DNA of 30,764 nt, from positions 1 to 30,764 of the IMG/VR virus record IMGVR_UViG_3300035390_000062; one strand, written 5' to 3'. The stretch comes from a virus. The number at the start of each line of letters is the position of its first letter. The first letter of the stretch is position 1. Positions 16,269 through 21,437 of the stretch are shown here, in pieces. Below the pieces are notes generated by a model, which was not told the origin of the DNA, ran no database searches, and saw nothing but the letters and a program-made list of their open reading frames with translations. A program made the translations under genes and the position numbers.

Positions 16269-16384
16269 GATAATCCTCCATCGCATCCATGAGTGATAGC
16301 GCATAATAGAGACACAGTGTGGAGATTTGAAATCAACGCTATGGCTCACGTGTTACTTTCTCAATTGAATTGATTGCATTGAAA

Positions 16385-16415
16385 AGGACTGTCAAGATTT
16401 CTCTCAAACAGTCCT
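16385..16415. repeat. inverted repeat upstream of the late operon
   Basis: Perfect 8-bp arms AGGACTGT and ACAGTCCT separated by 15 bases. On the minus strand the stem is followed by only four Ts, so it is a poor terminator. It may be an activator or terminase binding site, or a terminator for readthrough into the late operon. Confidence 0.45.
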
Positions 16416-16582
16416 CTGTAATTTATTACTCTTCTACTATACTACAAAAAAGCGTCTCATTTTGTCGCATTTCGTCTATTCTTAAATATTCCACCAGAAT
16501 TAATATTGTTTTTTCTCCATGATGCTTAATTCCAGCTAATTATTTCACGTAATGTTATAATTGCGTTACAAGTGTGTATATT

Positions 16583-16629
16583 TTGAACCTTTTGGTTGAA
16601 CTCTTTGTATAATTGTGTTATTCTATAAT
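16583..16629 (+). promoter_or_regulatory. promoter and operator of the XRE/ImmA island
   Basis: Two direct copies of TTGAAC (16583-16588 and 16596-16601) flank an imperfect palindrome AACC-TTTT-GGTT. A consensus TATAAT lies at 16608-16613 and another at 16624-16629. The arrangement fits autoregulation by the XRE protein encoded next. Spacing of TTGAAC to TATAAT (19) is long, so the exact -35 is uncertain. Confidence 0.5.
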
Positions 16630-16651
16630 TACCAAAGGAGGAGGAGTGAAA

Positions 16652-17011
16652 ATGAACGCTCTTGGAAAATTTTTACGGAAACTGCGAATAGATCATGATG
16701 AGGTTTTAAAGCACATGGCTAGTAAGCTTGGTGTCTCGTCTTCTTTCTTATCAGCAGTCGAACACAATAAGAAAAGGATGCCATCATCGTGGATTAGGGA
16801 CATCCCAGCTATTTACTCTCTCTCACAAGAACAAATCGCAGAATTTGAATCCGCTATTGCAGAAACAAATCGAAGCATTGAAATCAACTTCAATGATGTC
16901 TCCGAGTCAGTTAAACGATCTGCAGCAGTGACATTCGCTAGACGATTTGACGATATTGACGAAGACCTAGCTAAACAGTTACTTAAAATTCTGAAAAAAG
17001 GAGACGATTAA
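16652..17011 (+). CDS. XRE-family repressor paired with ImmA
   Basis: 119 residues. The start is the ATG at 16652, because AAAGGAGGAGGAG lies directly before it; an in-frame ATG at 16613 falls inside the promoter. Residues 1 to about 65 are an HTH: LGKFLRKLRIDHDEVLKHMA, then SKLGVSSSFLSAVEHNKKRMP. The C-terminal half contains RSIEINFNDVSESVKRSAAVTFARRFDDID, a segment often seen in repressors that are substrates of ImmA/IrrE peptidases. The peptidase gene follows 5 bases later. In ICEBs1 and related elements such pairs form a switch in which the peptidase cuts the repressor upon DNA damage or another signal. It is transcribed away from the late operon. Confidence 0.82.
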   Translation: MNALGKFLRKLRIDHDEVLKHMASKLGVSSSFLSAVEHNKKRMPSSWIRDIPAIYSLSQEQIAEFESAIAETNRSIEINFNDVSESVKRSAAVTFARRFDDIDEDLAKQLLKILKKGDD

Positions 17012-17016
17012 TGTAA

Positions 17017-17595
17017 ATGAAGAAGATTCTTGTTGCTAAACCTATGAGTCGTAAGAATGTCAGGCATAAAGCTCAAGCCTTAAAAGATATTTATTCTCTT
17101 TATTCGAAGAACGACTCTCAGAAAGCAGATGTTATCGATTTACTTGAGAACATCTTGCCTGAAATTGTTCCTGGAGTAGATGTCCAAATCGTTGGATGCA
17201 AAGAACTTGGAAGTGATCATGGACGAACAAGTCCAAGCGAAAAAATTATACGTATTCGTGAAGATATCTATGAGCGTGCCGTTGCTGGCGAAGGAAGAGA
17301 TCGTTTCACGATAATGCATGAAATTGGACATCTATTCCTCCACGATGATCAACGCATATCTTTTGCTAGAACTATGTCTGAACCAGAACCATTCCGTGAT
17401 CCAGAATGGCAGGCAAGTGCTTTTGCCGGAGAATTTTTAATGCCATTTGATTACATAAAAGAAGAGAAGGATATTTTCAACATCATGGAAGAATGCGGAG
17501 TATCTTTCGATGCTGCCAAAACACAAAGAAAAGCAGTGCTTAATCAGGGCAAAAGCCCTGTTCATATAAATAAAAAAATCAAGCAAAATGCTTGA
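17017..17595 (+). CDS. ImmA/IrrE-family metallo-endopeptidase
   Basis: 192 residues. The zinc motif HExxH is HEIGH at 101-105 in FTIMHEIGHLFLHD, and the third ligand Glu is in WQASAFAGEFLMP (Glu139), the arrangement of the COG2856 family. This enzyme class cleaves XRE repressors and frees promoters. The N-terminal ~40 residues are basic and helical. The gene begins 5 bases after the repressor stop, with AAAGGAG inside the repressor's last codons. It carries no extra C-terminal domain. As a partner of the upstream XRE protein it could govern the island itself or late genes. Confidence 0.88.
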   Translation: MKKILVAKPMSRKNVRHKAQALKDIYSLYSKNDSQKADVIDLLENILPEIVPGVDVQIVGCKELGSDHGRTSPSEKIIRIREDIYERAVAGEGRDRFTIMHEIGHLFLHDDQRISFARTMSEPEPFRDPEWQASAFAGEFLMPFDYIKEEKDIFNIMEECGVSFDAAKTQRKAVLNQGKSPVHINKKIKQNA

Positions 17596-17596
17596 T
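17571..17596 (-). terminator. intrinsic terminator, minus strand
   Basis: A perfect hairpin ATCAAGCA-AAA-TGCTTGAT (17578-17596) whose minus-strand copy runs straight into seven Ts (17578-17572). It would stop transcription coming leftward from the accessory block before it reaches the XRE/ImmA genes. It overlaps the last codons of the peptidase gene. Confidence 0.75.
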
Positions 17597-17702
17597 CAAT
17601 TCCCTGCACTGGCAGGTAATATAATTGTTTCTCAGCAAAACAAGTATATCACCTTGGGAACATAAAATCAACTGTGTGTTTTGCTTGGGAAAGGAGAAAT
17701 CC

Positions 17703-17855
17703 ATGGCCAAGAAGTCATATCCTCGCGATACTGAAGAATATGAAGTGATTTTTCGTTCGTACATTACATTGAAAAACGGGAAAAGACTCTACGCTTCTAC
17801 AGTCGGTAAAAAAGCATTTCCTATTTACATTAAGAAATCCGACAAGAAATCATAG
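17703..17855 (+). CDS. hypothetical small protein, 50 aa
   Basis: A short basic protein (AKKSYPRDTEEYEVIFRSYI, then LKNGKRLYASTVGKKAFPIY). The start at ATG 17703 has AAAGGAG eight bases before it. It has the look of a compact beta-strand protein, with alternating hydrophobic residues and many lysines. The gene is 107 bases after the ImmA gene and ends 12 bases before an intrinsic terminator, so it is the last gene of the plus-strand unit. No family recognised. It could be a target of, or a modulator for, the XRE/ImmA pair. Confidence 0.6.
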   Translation: MAKKSYPRDTEEYEVIFRSYITLKNGKRLYASTVGKKAFPIYIKKSDKKS

Positions 17856-17867
17856 AGCCTCAGTAGC

Positions 17868-17902
17868 AATGAGTCCAGCCAGTGGGACTCATTATTTTTT
17901 TA
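17868..17902 (+). terminator. intrinsic terminator of the XRE/ImmA island
   Basis: AATGAGTCC (17868-17876) and GGGACTCATT (17884-17893) form a stem with a 7-base loop, followed by ATTTTTTT on the plus strand. A textbook Rho-independent terminator. Confidence 0.88.
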
Positions 17903-17952
17903 CCCTCTTTAAAGCAATTTTAACACTTTTTGTCAAGCAAACCCATATTACT

Positions 17953-18135
17953 TCATGCGTTACGCATCCTCTCAATCCCACTATCAAACAGTCTATAGCA
18001 CGGGGAACTATACCTCATCTTTATGGCCACGTCTTTCCAGTTCTTGTCTTCAAAGCACCTCAGCTCTATGATCCCGTACCCGTCGACAATGAGAAGCTTC
18101 ATCGCCCCAGCGATCTGGTTATTGCTATCCAAGTA
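17953..18135 (-). pseudogene. remnant of an ArpU/RinA-like late transcription regulator
   Basis: An open stretch of 61 codons without a fitting start: in-frame TAG at 18138-18136 and TGA at 17955-17953. The translation (NQIAGAMKLLIVDGYGIIEL, then RCFEDKNWKDVAIKMRYSSP and CYRLFDSGIERM) aligns without gaps to the C-terminal half of the intact regulator at 23527-24027 (RNQIDRGLSKLKHDEYKVIA, LRCFKRMRWREISKRMHYSK, SHCHRILVSGIKKL). The sigma-70 region-4-like HTH is preserved but the N-terminal half is missing, and no binding site precedes the internal ATG at 18102. It is diverged, so not a recent copy of the intact gene. Probably left from another phage by recombination. Confidence 0.7.
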
Positions 18136-18207
18136 CTACTTTATCTCACTCCCTAAACCTTTCAGGTATTTACTACATTTCATTATAATTTGCTACCTAT
18201 TATCCAA

Positions 18208-18645
18208 TTAAACATTCCACCCAATATTCCGAAGTGCATTTTCTATAATTTTCGCATAACTATTCATCCCGCGTTTCCTAAGTTCAACAGCAAAAATTGG
18301 CCACGGAGGATGAATTGCCATATACGGATCACCATCTGGACCAGTATACATTCCACCTCCTACACCGGTATATAAACCTCCACCTACACCTGTGTATAAG
18401 CCTCCACCTACTCCTGTGTATAAGCCTCCACCTACGCCTGTATATAAACCTCCACCTACGCCTGTATACATCCCACCGCCTACACCAGTATACATTCCAC
18501 CTCCTACGCCGGTATACATTCCGCCGCCTACACCAGTATACATTCCGCCGCCTACACCGGTATACATTCCGCCGCCTACACCGGTATACATTCCGCCGCC
18601 TACACCAGTATACATATTTCGGACCCATAAATTATTATTACTCAA
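18208..18645 (-). CDS. octapeptide-repeat protein (YTGVGGG repeats), unknown function
   Basis: 145 residues in three parts: a 10-residue start (SNNNLWVRN), twelve octapeptides of consensus MYTGVGGG or LYTGVGGG (residues 11-106, the last one changed to MYTGPDGD), and a 39-residue helical tail with PPWPIFAVELRKRG and SYAKIIENALRNIGW. The gene starts at TTG, with a strong AAAGGAGGT before it. Differences between the 24-bp units are almost only synonymous (Tyr TAT/TAC, Thr ACA/ACC/ACT, Gly third bases), so the peptide repeat itself is under selection. Each unit has one aromatic residue and four glycines, suiting a repetitive beta-turn or beta-hairpin solenoid. I cannot name the family. It has no signal peptide or membrane helix. 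Its upstream region is a copy of that before 19603-19827. Confidence 0.75.
   Translation of the reverse strand: MSNNNLWVRNMYTGVGGGMYTGVGGGMYTGVGGGMYTGVGGGMYTGVGGGMYTGVGGGMYTGVGGGLYTGVGGGLYTGVGGGLYTGVGGGLYTGVGGGMYTGPDGDPYMAIHPPWPIFAVELRKRGMNSYAKIIENALRNIGWNV
18328..18615 (-). repeat. tandem 24-bp repeat array, 12 units
   Basis: Twelve direct units of 24 bp inside the octapeptide-repeat gene. Eleven encode (M/L)YTGVGGG exactly; the unit at 18351-18328 is degenerate. Because 24 is a multiple of three, other frames are open too and give spurious long readings on both strands. Confidence 0.95.
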
Positions 18646-18695
18646 TTGGAGACCTCCTTTATTTAAACACTTTTGTTATTCACTTCTTAAAATAC

Positions 18696-18781
18696 TAACT
18701 TGTCATATCTTAAACTATGTAAAATCCTAACAATTATAGTGGGTCATTACAATTTCATTGTTGAAAGGGAATCGTTAAAAT
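18696..18781 (-). promoter_or_regulatory. regulatory element copy A, upstream of the octapeptide-repeat gene
   Basis: Matches copy B (19842-19929) at about 64 of 83 aligned positions by hand count. Fully shared blocks are TAACTTGTCATATCTTA, TATGTAAAA and CAATTTCA at the same spacing. On the minus strand it contains TATAAT (18738-18733), a likely -10. It lies 51 bases before the TTG start. Confidence 0.65.
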
Positions 18782-18793
18782 ACTCGTAAATCC

Positions 18794-19606
18794 CTATTCA
18801 TCTTTAAAATTTATATTTATTGCACTATTAAGCTTATTTACTGCATTAGTATAAAGATTTATTGCTAACTTATGTTCCATTAGTCCTGAGAAAAAACCCA
18901 ATGCAATAGCCATTTCAATATTATTATTTATACTCTGACTATTTATCTTTCCAATACTAAATGAAACTATTTCAGTTCTTATAAGTAACGCTAGAACCAA
19001 AGCAGCAGTACCAATAAAAATCAACCTAACAATTGGATTTAGTCTATCTTTCTCAATAACAACAAGATCTTCAAATCGTAAATTTGTTTTCCGAACACCA
19101 AATGAAAACCAAACTCCAATCATTGACGATGACCATACTGCTAAATATACATTGCTCAGGGTATTAAAAACCTCAATATTGTGTAAAAATAGTTGTACTG
19201 AAAGTATTATTAGATATGGTATAATCGCTAGCAAAATAGCATACCCTACCAATTTTACCATATATTTATTTTTAACTTTCCCCCCCTCACGATTTAACAC
19301 TTCTAATTTCAAGCTATCTAGTCCAACATTAGCCAATATAGGTTGTGGATTCTCCCCTACTAAACCTGCTTGTGATAAAGACAATAACTTGTCAAAATAC
19401 TGTTTCTTAATAGTATCTTCGCATTCAATTGATTTTAAAGTGTTTTGTGTGTTTTCAATAGCATCAATTAAAGATAAAAGTGCAGTTGGAATTTTTTCAA
19501 CTTTCTCATAGGGTACAGTTTCTACTAAAATATCATATTGATCATCTGGGTTAATTCTTACTGTGTAATAGCCCTGAAATTTCTTCTTTCTGATTCTCAT
19601 TATCAT
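18794..19606 (-). CDS. hypothetical integral membrane protein, 270 aa
   Basis: The N-terminal ~115 residues are cytoplasmic-type, basic at the start (MRIRKKKFQGYYTVRINPDD) with a helical middle (IDAIENTQNTLKSIECEDTI). Four hydrophobic helices follow at about 117-141, 152-170, 192-212 and 229-243, then a short amphipathic tail. No catalytic motif is seen and I do not know the family. It starts by ATGA overlap on the 74-aa gene, so the two are co-translated and probably act together. AT content is higher than in the structural genes, in line with horizontal acquisition. Possible roles are a membrane effector of a defence or exclusion system, but this is inference from layout only. Confidence 0.6.
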   Translation of the reverse strand: MIMRIRKKKFQGYYTVRINPDDQYDILVETVPYEKVEKIPTALLSLIDAIENTQNTLKSIECEDTIKKQYFDKLLSLSQAGLVGENPQPILANVGLDSLKLEVLNREGGKVKNKYMVKLVGYAILLAIIPYLIILSVQLFLHNIEVFNTLSNVYLAVWSSSMIGVWFSFGVRKTNLRFEDLVVIEKDRLNPIVRLIFIGTAALVLALLIRTEIVSFSIGKINSQSINNNIEMAIALGFFSGLMEHKLAINLYTNAVNKLNSAININFKDE

Positions 19607-19827
19607 TTACCACAGCAAGGACAGGAATCTCCTCCCATTCCAACAGATTTTCGAACTATTTCTCCATGTTGAAAGCTTGATTCTGCTAATTTTTCTAAAG
19701 CTTCCTCTTCTAACAACCCTTTCCCATCAAGCAATCTCAGTTCATATAATAGTCTTTTCTGTCCCTCTGACAATTTTGAGTATTCTCTTGATTCTAAGTC
19801 ATTTTTTAGTTCTTTTAATTTTGACAT
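19603..19827 (-). CDS. hypothetical 74-aa protein with C-terminal CPCCGK
   Basis: A small, charged helical protein (SKLKELKNDLESREYSKLSE, GLLEEEALEKLAESSFQHGE) ending in GMGGDSCPCCGK. The Cys-x-Cys-Cys tail could bind a metal or a thiol partner, and being at the very end it might be a peptide tag or a zinc site shared between two chains. It is first in a two-gene operon with the 270-aa membrane protein. AGGGGG precedes the ATG. No family recognised. The regulatory copy B stands 15 bases upstream. Confidence 0.6.
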   Translation of the reverse strand: MSKLKELKNDLESREYSKLSEGQKRLLYELRLLDGKGLLEEEALEKLAESSFQHGEIVRKSVGMGGDSCPCCGK

Positions 19828-19841
19828 TTAACTACCCCCTT

Positions 19842-19929
19842 TTAACTTGTCATATCTTAGTATTATGTAAAACTCATTCAACTACAGTATAGCATTGCAA
19901 TTTCAACGTTAAAAGAAAATTGTTAAATT
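19842..19929 (-). promoter_or_regulatory. regulatory element copy B, upstream of the 74-aa/270-aa operon
   Basis: Second copy of the element at 18696-18781. On the minus strand it contains TGCTATACT, an extended -10 (hexamer 19891-19886). The shared block TAACTTGTCATATCTTA (19843-19859) would be transcribed in the 5' leader just before the binding site. Confidence 0.65.
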
Positions 19930-19950
19930 TTAGTTTAATAATCCTTTTTT

Positions 19951-19980
19951 TTGTAAAACTGGCTACATTTCCGATATAAT
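19951..19980 (+). promoter_or_regulatory. promoter for the 45-aa peptide gene
   Basis: TTGTAA (19951-19956), 18 bases, then consensus TATAAT (19975-19980). The gene start follows 28 bases later, so the leader is short. Confidence 0.6.
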
Positions 19981-20007
19981 AATAAAGGGGATCTCTAAGG
20001 AGGCTCT

Positions 20008-20145
20008 ATGGCAAATAAGAATTCTGGAAATAAAAATAGTGGAGCACAAGGCTCCACAAAAACTAAAACACCATATACAAATGAAAGAAACAACACTACT
20101 AGTAATAATTTACGAAAACCCGCACCACCTACTGAACAGAAATAG
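20008..20145 (+). CDS. small hydrophilic 45-aa peptide, convergent with membrane protein gene
   Basis: An uninterrupted reading frame of 45 codons with its own promoter and an excellent TAAGGAGG seven bases before the ATG. The peptide is rich in Asn, Lys, Thr and Ser (ANKNSGNKNSGAQGSTKTKT, then NLRKPAPPTEQK), low in hydrophobic residues and probably disordered. It ends inside the 3' end of the opposing 236-aa membrane gene (17-base overlap), so the transcripts are antisense to each other. The careful expression signals argue that it is real despite its length. Function unknown; an antitoxin-like or regulatory partner of a neighbour is possible. Confidence 0.55.
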   Translation: MANKNSGNKNSGAQGSTKTKTPYTNERNNTTSNNLRKPAPPTEQK

Positions 20146-20839
20146 GTTTACCAATAAGTTTCATTTTTTCAGCGAGATCCCTCCCATAATACAACGTCGT
20201 GCAAAACCCGGTATCACAATCTAGCATTTCTACTTGGACATACTTCTCAATCGGATAAGTTTCATTTAGAATGAATTCTACAATTTCCTTCGAATAGAAC
20301 ATTACTACCTTTTTTTCTTCAGAAGAAGAAGAAGACCAACTCTCTAAAAACCCAATTATCTCAATACCATCCGATTGAGTTAATTTCAATATAGGATATT
20401 CATTGTTCTCCTTTTTCAAATACTCAGATTCAAAAACCTCTTCATAGATTGTCCTATACTTATTCCTAGAAGGCAATCCACTTTTTCCCCTAACCGAGTT
20501 GATAACCCGCGTAATCAACCTTGACCAGTACGTCCCCATAAACAATACTCCAACAAACGCTAAGAGAAAACAACCCGCCAAATATATTGAAACGCCTAAC
20601 AATCCTTGTCCTCGTGAAAATATTTCTTCGATACTATAATAAAAAATACTCTTGCTCGAAAATGAAATTGTGATCGTGTAATAAATCAAATTAATTATCA
20701 AACTACTTACTACTAGACATGAGAGCACTGAGTATCCTTCTGTTTCAAGCTTTCCTGCTTTCTTATCCCATATGTGCATATGCAGATAATTATAGAAAAA
20801 ACCAGGAACCAAAAAATATATTATACTAATAATATCCAT
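20129..20839 (-). CDS. membrane protein with cytoplasmic C-terminal domain, DUF6338-like
   Basis: 236 residues. Three N-terminal hydrophobic segments at about 4-20 (ISIIYFLVPGFFYNYLH), 35-60 and 80-105, then a soluble domain from 110 to the end with RNKYRTIYEEVFESEYLKK, a strand-rich YPILKLTQSDGIEIIGFLES and VVMFYSKEIVEFILNET. This order (VPGF near the start, helices, then a domain that reads like a small beta barrel for a ligand) resembles what I know as DUF6338. The match is from memory and moderate. GGAGG precedes the ATG. It is 55 bases downstream of the recombinase gene, so early transcription may reach it. Role unknown; such proteins occur as accessory genes in prophages. Confidence 0.6.
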   Translation of the reverse strand: MDIISIIYFLVPGFFYNYLHMHIWDKKAGKLETEGYSVLSCLVVSSLIINLIYYTITISFSSKSIFYYSIEEIFSRGQGLLGVSIYLAGCFLLAFVGVLFMGTYWSRLITRVINSVRGKSGLPSRNKYRTIYEEVFESEYLKKENNEYPILKLTQSDGIEIIGFLESWSSSSSEEKKVVMFYSKEIVEFILNETYPIEKYVQVEMLDCDTGFCTTLYYGRDLAEKMKLIGKPISVQ

Positions 20840-20894
20840 TATATAACCTCCATATTTTATTGTAACATATCTTCGCTAGTTGATTTTTCCTTTT

Positions 20895-21437
20895 CTAGGA
20901 CAAGGTAAACGCCTTATATGCTTTATTGACCAGTTGCCGATTAACTCCGATATATCTGAGTGTTATTGAAGAATGTGAATGATTGTAGATCTCCTGTAGC
21001 GTTACCACATCCTTGGTTTTTTGATAGAAATGATACCCGAAAGTCTTCCGTAAACTATGAGTCCCAAAATTGTCGATCTTGAACTCTTTGGCCACATCTT
21101 GGAGAATCTGATAAGCTCTTTGCCTGGTTATCGCTTTATACCCCTCGCGACCTTTGAAAAGAAAATCCGTTGAATCCTTCCCTTTAGCATACCGCTTCAA
21201 CTCTCTTTTCAGTACCGTATTGAGCGGGATTTCTTTCATCTTCTTCGTCTTTTGCTCCTTTATGTAGATGTACTCATCTCCAATGTCCCGAAAGGTAAGC
21301 CTTAGAATATCCGATATCCTAAGTCCTGTATTGAAACCAACCAGAACCATCATGTAGTCTCGCTCATTTTTACTTTTTAAATGCTTGAGGATCCTGCTAA
21401 CAAGGTCCATACTTCTAATTGGTTCGACATAATTCAT
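20895..21437 (-). CDS. minimal tyrosine recombinase (catalytic domain only)
   Basis: 180 residues that consist of the catalytic domain alone. Active-site residues are all visible: Arg40 in FNTGLRISD, Lys in KEQKTKKMK (about 60-63), His127 and Arg130 in THSLRKTFG, His153 in NHSHSSITL and nucleophile Tyr162 in LRYIG, with the usual nine-residue distance from His to Tyr. The N-terminal core-binding domain of normal phage integrases (350-400 aa) is missing and no truncation is visible, since a proper binding site (TTGGAGTG) precedes the ATG. Short recombinases of this sort are common at the end of the replication block of Firmicute phages. It is unlikely to be the main integrase, which should lie near the lysogeny genes to the right of this window. 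Confidence 0.85.
   Translation of the reverse strand: MNYVEPIRSMDLVSRILKHLKSKNERDYMMVLVGFNTGLRISDILRLTFRDIGDEYIYIKEQKTKKMKEIPLNTVLKRELKRYAKGKDSTDFLFKGREGYKAITRQRAYQILQDVAKEFKIDNFGTHSLRKTFGYHFYQKTKDVVTLQEIYNHSHSSITLRYIGVNRQLVNKAYKAFTLS

Follow-up and report, generated by a model that had tools for sequence, protein, structure and literature searches.

Among proteins built of short glycine-rich repeats, the RTX beta-rolls follow the nonapeptide GGxGxDxUx. Bundles of polyproline/polyglycine-II (PPII) helices represent another such architecture and were described in the snow-flea antifreeze protein, Obg and gp38 of phage S16 (PMC8409303, PMC6851490). Obg binds the ribosome through its glycine-rich PPII domain, and glycine-rich PPII bundles were furthermore proposed to promote condensates (PMC8409303). 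With regard to genomic location, defence hotspots have been described that lie between cI and int or, near the integrase, are flanked by a regulator and a peptidase (PMC9122126).

The stretch of viral DNA analysed here (IMG/VR record IMGVR_UViG_3300035390_000062, 30,764 nucleotides; hereafter the window) encodes an octapeptide-repeat protein of an architecture for which no description was found in the libraries and literature searched. The gene and its parts are as follows.

18208..18645, minus strand: octad-repeat protein gene, 145 aa, TTG start (open reading frame, same-frame homologues, pN/pS 0.07)
18652..18660, minus strand: Shine-Dalgarno sequence AAAGGAGGT, read from the sequence
18616..18645, minus strand: head MSNNNLWVRN, residues 1-10, with W-x-R-[ND] kept family-wide (alignments A2/A3)
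18328..18615, minus strand: array of 12 octads, 11 of them [ML]YTGVGGG, plus MYTGPDGD
18211..18327, minus strand: tail PYMAIHPPWP...IGWNV, with a PPW core and a predicted helical hairpin

The Shine-Dalgarno sequence is strong, its GGAGG being spaced 7 nt from the TTG. We defined the family by a W-x-R-[ND] head, 12 GG octads and a PP[WILF] two-helix tail, and all three parts were found in the window protein. The head is represented by LWVRN (residues 6-10), placed directly before the first octad; in alignments A2/A3 R9 is invariant and W7 is kept in at least 90% of the family. The array consists of 11 complete octads with GG at positions 7-8 and a terminal unit, in the order of seven MYTGVGGG, four LYTGVGGG and MYTGPDGD, and its 24-nt period was recovered independently by TRF at 18340-18615. 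The tail following the twelfth unit, PYMAIHPPWPIFAVELRKRGMNSYAKIIENALRNIGWNV, contains the PP[WILF] motif and two predicted helices; P113 and P114 are invariant in the family alignment. The protein is probably soluble, with neither signal peptide nor transmembrane (TM) segment. The initial annotation had described a TTG-started protein of twelve octads that form two thirds of its length, and the open reading frame, the segmentation (96 of 145 residues) and TRF agree with it.

Pairwise comparison of the 11 exact units revealed 205 synonymous and 28 non-synonymous codon differences (pS 0.61, pN 0.044), the sole replacement being M/L at position 1. The antisense frame is likewise open across the array, where it encodes PPPTPVYK repeats with pN/pS of 0.09. 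Since this value is almost as good, periodicity alone was dropped as evidence for the strand. The homologues settled the strand, since only in the minus-strand frame do they preserve the head, the octad phase and the PPW tail. The open antisense frame might be taken as a sign of an artefact, i.e. a low-complexity repeat that is untranslated or antisense, or a recent expansion of the microsatellite kind. We regard its probability as negligible in view of the Shine-Dalgarno sequence with TTG, the low pN/pS, the high synonymous divergence and the conservation of head and tail in many phyla. In most homologues the synonymous divergence between units was 0.5-0.78 at pN of about 0-0.1. Lower pS was seen in L003, L008, L037, L045, L048, L055, L060 and L089, where units may have been homogenised recently. 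Judged by these sequence comparisons, the window gene is a real, old protein-coding gene under selection.

The number of units was compared across 61 distinct members of the family, 58 of them full length. Exactly 12 units were counted in 50 of these 58, despite near-saturated synonymous sites; four members have 11 and one has 13, while counts of 5, 6 and 7 occur in one member each. An E. coli member with 11 units (L084) stands among 12-unit relatives, therefore slippage occurs, yet 12 prevails. It had been proposed from the window alone that selection keeps the repeat, which would not be a young expansion, and that counting synonymous and non-synonymous changes between units and comparing repeat numbers among homologues would bear on this. 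Both comparisons uphold the proposal: the changes are mainly synonymous in the window and in the homologues, the number of twelve is kept, and few homologues are frameshifted or truncated.

Moreover, single units can be told apart across phyla by their first residue: A opens unit 4 in 41 of 48 members, and L opens units 9-11 in 47-48 of 48 (in all 48 for units 10-11). In subfamily A, position 1 alternates M-A-M-A through units 1-8, which suggests a two-octad period.

These data bear on a proposal of the initial annotation, a fibre-like, structural or phase-separating element. GPGG/GVGG units and a Tyr at regular intervals are reminiscent of flagelliform silk and elastin, and a Gly/Tyr-rich array could self-associate, perhaps in the virion. 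The condensate role proposed for glycine-rich PPII bundles would also be in line with this (PMC8409303). However, the fixed number of twelve and the unit-specific residues at position 1 argue against an open-ended fibre or condensate polymer, and the homologues replace Tyr by Ser, His or Asp. Furthermore, the gene lies outside the structural genes, being located in the window apart from the terminase-tail block and thus not in the structural/late module of virion proteins, and occurs on plasmids and chromosomes as well. We therefore consider a fibre or condensate quite unlikely.

AlphaFold2 was applied to the window protein together with 31 relatives. In the window tail, helices 115-124 and 128-140 (18303-18274 and 18264-18226) were predicted with pLDDT of about 90, in agreement with the helical tail suggested before. 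The repeats of the window protein reached pLDDT of about 30-40; weak strands appeared in them at intervals of 16 residues. With L025 (DQYNGGG) as query, the best model had pLDDT 83 and pTM 0.77, the other four 61, 55, 53 and 49, and the repeats of the best model contained neither DSSP strand nor alpha helix. The stacked beta structure put forward initially thus found no support in either prediction. Foldseek and VIA returned no match with the L025 model, a result that does not count against PPII bundles. The sole PDB sequence matches, to rhoptry neck protein 2 (E 9e-6 and 3e-6), were discounted as look-alikes of the repeat region. Among the five AlphaFold2 models of L025, a divergent homologue, a single one supports a fold of the octads.

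Positions 2-6 of the octad behave differently from position 1. Their identity was 0.90 within proteins (units 4-10) and 0.73 between proteins at the same unit, while for position 1 the relation was reversed (0.49 within and 0.69 between). Interior motifs comprise YTGPG, YTGVG, STGPG, STLRG (L011), DQYNG (L025), SVYSG (L030), STGPY (L089), HTGPG (L092) and YIGPG (L062), and arrays of the V type were found in two separate clades of the tree. The uniformity of the motif within a protein and its variability between proteins are the strongest reason to read the array as a scaffold multiplying one motif. Patterns of sequence conservation hence suggest a fold of finite size that presents a single short motif about 12 times.

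The window protein matched 0 families in Pfam, NCBIfam, PHROGs and PADLOC profiles, and 29 homologues matched 0 Pfam families. Searches of the literature on the motif or on octapeptide-repeat prophage proteins produced nothing relevant. Weak relatives were detected by tblastn on plasmids from Acinetobacter, Bacillus, Enterococcus, Weissella and Clavibacter. With the E. faecium homologue as query, Aerococcus, Vibrio and Paenibacillus could be included as well. A genome scan delivered 52 loci in at least nine phyla, namely Bacillota, Pseudomonadota, Actinomycetota, Bacteroidota, Cyanobacteriota, Acidobacteriota, Ignavibacteriota, Campylobacterota and Thermodesulfobacteriota. The relatives sit on plasmids, in prophages and in chromosomal defence islands. 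Phage collections gave no match to the window protein, the E. faecium homologue or the window DNA, and viral contigs yielded none with the window protein and one relative with the alignment. The initial framing as a phage protein was therefore too narrow, most relatives having been found on plasmids and chromosomes of many phyla. In the tree, the window protein is sister to that of Paenibacillus silagei (support 100/99; 81% identity). Bacillota, Pseudomonadota and Thermodesulfobacteriota are all represented in its subfamily, a mixture that indicates horizontal transfer. The family is an unnamed, horizontally spread cargo gene of mobile elements.

It is also rare, relatives being present in about 1% or less of the genomes sampled. 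Full-length matches occurred in 3 of 298 genomes of one order and in 1 of 369 genomes of one class, the latter along with two weaker secreted look-alikes; another order had matches in 3 of 241 genomes, two of them partial or short. In E. coli, the octad gene was found in 18 of 5,426 genomes. Secreted octad proteins were excluded from the family, since they have the unit in common with it and miss the PPW tail. Two proteins with predicted signal peptides (L077:1282-1797 and L078:1417-1818) carry 11-12 octads of similar kind (YSGPGGP, LSTGPGGG) and no PPW tail. Rarity, at most three full-length copies per 240-370 genomes sampled, together with a solitary position and no fixed partner, is what could be expected of a neutral or selfish hitchhiker without function for mobile elements. 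Strong purifying selection on both sequence and unit number makes this explanation improbable.

The surroundings of the homologues are rich in defence genes. GajA homologues were encoded near the octad gene in L014, L019 and L027, SIR2 with HerA in L017 and AbiLi in L028; weak matches to Ppl and PDC-S35 were seen in L044 and L049, respectively. On an Acinetobacter junii plasmid (L089), the neighbours comprise a reverse transcriptase, DUF4062 and an MspI restriction enzyme. In P2-like prophages of E. coli the octad gene follows int, with CI on that side too, and several of them have an AAA-ATPase and DUF4276 pair, which we take to be PARIS-like, on the octad/CI side. Neighbours matched 233 PADLOC families as compared with 43 for control genes of the same genomes, which is a trend and not a test, given the redundancy of the families and the crude gene calling. 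Gabija was rejected as a fixed partner: its genes lie on different strands, at gaps of at least several hundred bases, and are missing from most loci. The octad gene is often solitary and has no fixed partner. It should be added that in Streptococcus devriesei the octad gene is inserted between nrdE and nrdF (L056:3660-7207). Genes for a small protein of the YjzC family are located directly upstream of it on plasmids of Enterococcus (L009:2488-2655) and Aerococcus (L090:4476-4643).

An operon was observed in 12 loci of related uncultured Bacilli, where the overlapping genes are arranged in the order XRE, ImmA/IrrE-Fic and, at the end, the octad gene.

L034:933-2339: ImmA/IrrE-Fic fusion with intact HPFxDGNGR, with equivalents at different genomic sites (L035, L037, L039, L041, L043, L045, L048, L051, L052, L055 and L060)

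XRE and ImmA/IrrE genes also lie beside the octad gene in the window, and a pair homologous to these adjoins it in Acinetobacter plasmids. The octad gene and its neighbours in the window lie in an interval with the following features.

16350..20894, no strand assigned: cargo slot of variable content, flanked by the recombinase-like gene and the HNH-terminase genes; its size in related phages is 0.28-6.5 kb
16613..17595, plus strand: XRE repressor-like and ImmA/IrrE peptidase genes (HTH_19 and Peptidase_M78 matches)
18794..19827, minus strand: 270-aa protein (2 predicted TM segments) whose gene overlaps that of a 74-aa CPCC protein (open reading frames, hydropathy)
20129..20839, minus strand: 236-aa membrane protein, weakly DUF6338-like (PF19865, E=4e-4, below cut-off)

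These arrangements might mean that the octad protein is a substrate, sensor or antitoxin of XRE-ImmA/IrrE (and Fic) modules, cleaved or modified for instance at the repeated Tyr, Thr or Ser. The operon with overlapping genes upstream in the 12 Bacilli loci and the adjacency in the window and Acinetobacter plasmids speak for it. However, the Fic form belongs to one lineage, and most other loci contained neither motif in the flanks fetched. XRE-ImmA/IrrE pairs are common on mobile elements, so that the adjacency in the window and in Acinetobacter may be due to chance; moreover, the genes of the window are convergent, with a small open reading frame and a terminator-like site between them. We consider such a partnership rather unlikely. 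A small open reading frame of about 50 aa (MAKKSYPRDTEEYEV...) follows ImmA/IrrE in the window (17703-17855, plus strand), and a small open reading frame is likewise placed after ImmA/IrrE in Acinetobacter plasmids L003 and L008.

The slot that contains the octad gene is bordered by the recombinase-like gene (20895-21437) on one side and by HNH-TerS-TerL on the other. Through relatives of TerL and the recombinase, 102 related phage loci were collected; TerL occurred together with the recombinase or with the 522-aa gene in 15 of them. The recombinase-HNH interval ranged from 276 bp (L158) up to 6.5 kb (L159). Occupants of the slot include PD-T7-4 in L172 (E 9e-91), PDC-S56 in L159 (E 2e-207), PDC-S29 in L214 (E 1e-42), an OLD/AriA-like ATPase in L222 (E 7e-60) and a weak PDC-S64 match in L224; PADLOC gave no match for the cargo genes tested in L198, L200, L217 and L233, and some related phages have an empty slot. 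At the same search sensitivity, homologues of the octad, 270-aa and DUF6338-like proteins were not found in the 102 loci, and ImmA had two weak matches there. The octad gene and its neighbours being missing from these loci, the interval represents a variable cargo slot, often with defence genes; with PD-T7-4, PDC-S56, PDC-S29 or OLD-like genes it looks like a defence hotspot. By its location the octad gene thus shares a slot or island with known defence genes, both through the sister phages and through the loci of homologues. No fixed partner emerged when ImmA and the remaining slot cargo were searched for, the window ImmA had no relative in viral contigs at the search sensitivity used, and the 270-aa/74-aa pair had no convincing family matches in Pfam, NCBIfam, PHROGs or PADLOC. 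This pair and the DUF6338-like protein are themselves plausible defence candidates, and the defence component of the slot could be the XRE, ImmA/IrrE, 270-aa/74-aa or DUF6338-like gene instead.

Proximity to defence genes fits a neutral hitchhiker or a counter-defence gene too. Carriage by phages and plasmids would suit a counter-defence or host-takeover factor, such as an inhibitor of a host complex, and the ribosome binding of the glycine-rich PPII domain of Obg suggests one form of it, an Obg-like PPII ribosome binder (PMC8409303). Nevertheless, the gene also resides in chromosomal defence islands, its copies in P2-like prophages share the lysogenic side of the element with int and CI and are not among lytic genes, and the PDB sequence search found no similarity to Obg. 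Counter-defence is in our opinion unlikely.

The explanation we put first, tentatively and as somewhat less than an even chance, is that the octad protein is a stand-alone anti-phage or anti-mobile-element cargo protein acting through multivalent binding. The octads would fold into a closed glycine-rich domain, either a solenoid with two octads per turn or a bundle of polyproline/polyglycine-II helices. The GG positions and position 1 would form the scaffold, and positions 2-6 the surface, presenting one motif about 12 times, while the tail hairpin would serve as a partner or oligomerisation module. In P2-like prophages, the octad gene would be placed for production in the lysogen. The protein might then bind a repetitive target multivalently, as a sensor or blocker, and protect the host of the element against competing phages or mobile elements, with different motifs for different targets. 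Compact fold, multivalent binding and defence role are all inferred from the patterns described above. A broader and more doubtful proposition is a new recognition class of immune or counter-immune proteins, in which a rigid 12-rung glycine scaffold carries one exchangeable motif about twelve-fold, specificity is switched array-wide with twelve fixed, and, in one lineage, the adjacent IrrE-Fic may modify the repeated hydroxyl residues.

If twelve reflects a closed fold, this would be a tandem-repeat protein whose copy number is frozen while the text of the repeat is rewritten across the entire array, and this combination poses a sharp question for repeat evolution. The recurrent neighbourhood of defence systems puts the gene forward as a candidate new gene of defence or counter-defence, which is directly testable because homologues exist in P2-like prophages of E. 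coli.

In comparison with described systems, the protein family and its architecture are new, while the prophage defence slot as a kind of location is already known. The hotspots of P2-like and Bacillus prophages (PMC9122126) are comparable in that conserved phage genes flank a cargo that varies, and that sister phages carry known defence genes there; the octad gene is a candidate by its location. RTX beta-rolls resemble the family in their short glycine-rich repeat, and the hints of a 16-residue (two-unit) periodicity in subfamily A add to this likeness. In contrast to RTX, the window protein is built of octads, has no Asp in the 11 exact units and is not secreted, no strand was predicted in the repeats of the best L025 model, and the calcium-binding Asp is absent from the common forms of the family; membership in RTX beta-rolls was rejected on the octads and the missing Asp. 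PPII bundles, e.g. of the snow-flea antifreeze protein, the Obg N-domain, acetophenone carboxylase and the S16 gp38 adhesin, are made of short glycine-rich segments as well. The best model of L025, with confident repeats and no strand or alpha helix, is what PPII bundles would give. The octad family differs from them in unit number and motif uniformity, and no sequence homology was found. The nearest counterparts are unnamed “hypothetical proteins”, e.g. WP_258580557.1 from an Acinetobacter plasmid and WP_024205920.1 encoded next to int in P2-like prophages of E. coli, which have the same architecture and clear homology. The E. coli proteins and most other members have the same number of units as the window protein, and most members read YTGPGGG where the window protein reads YTGVGGG.
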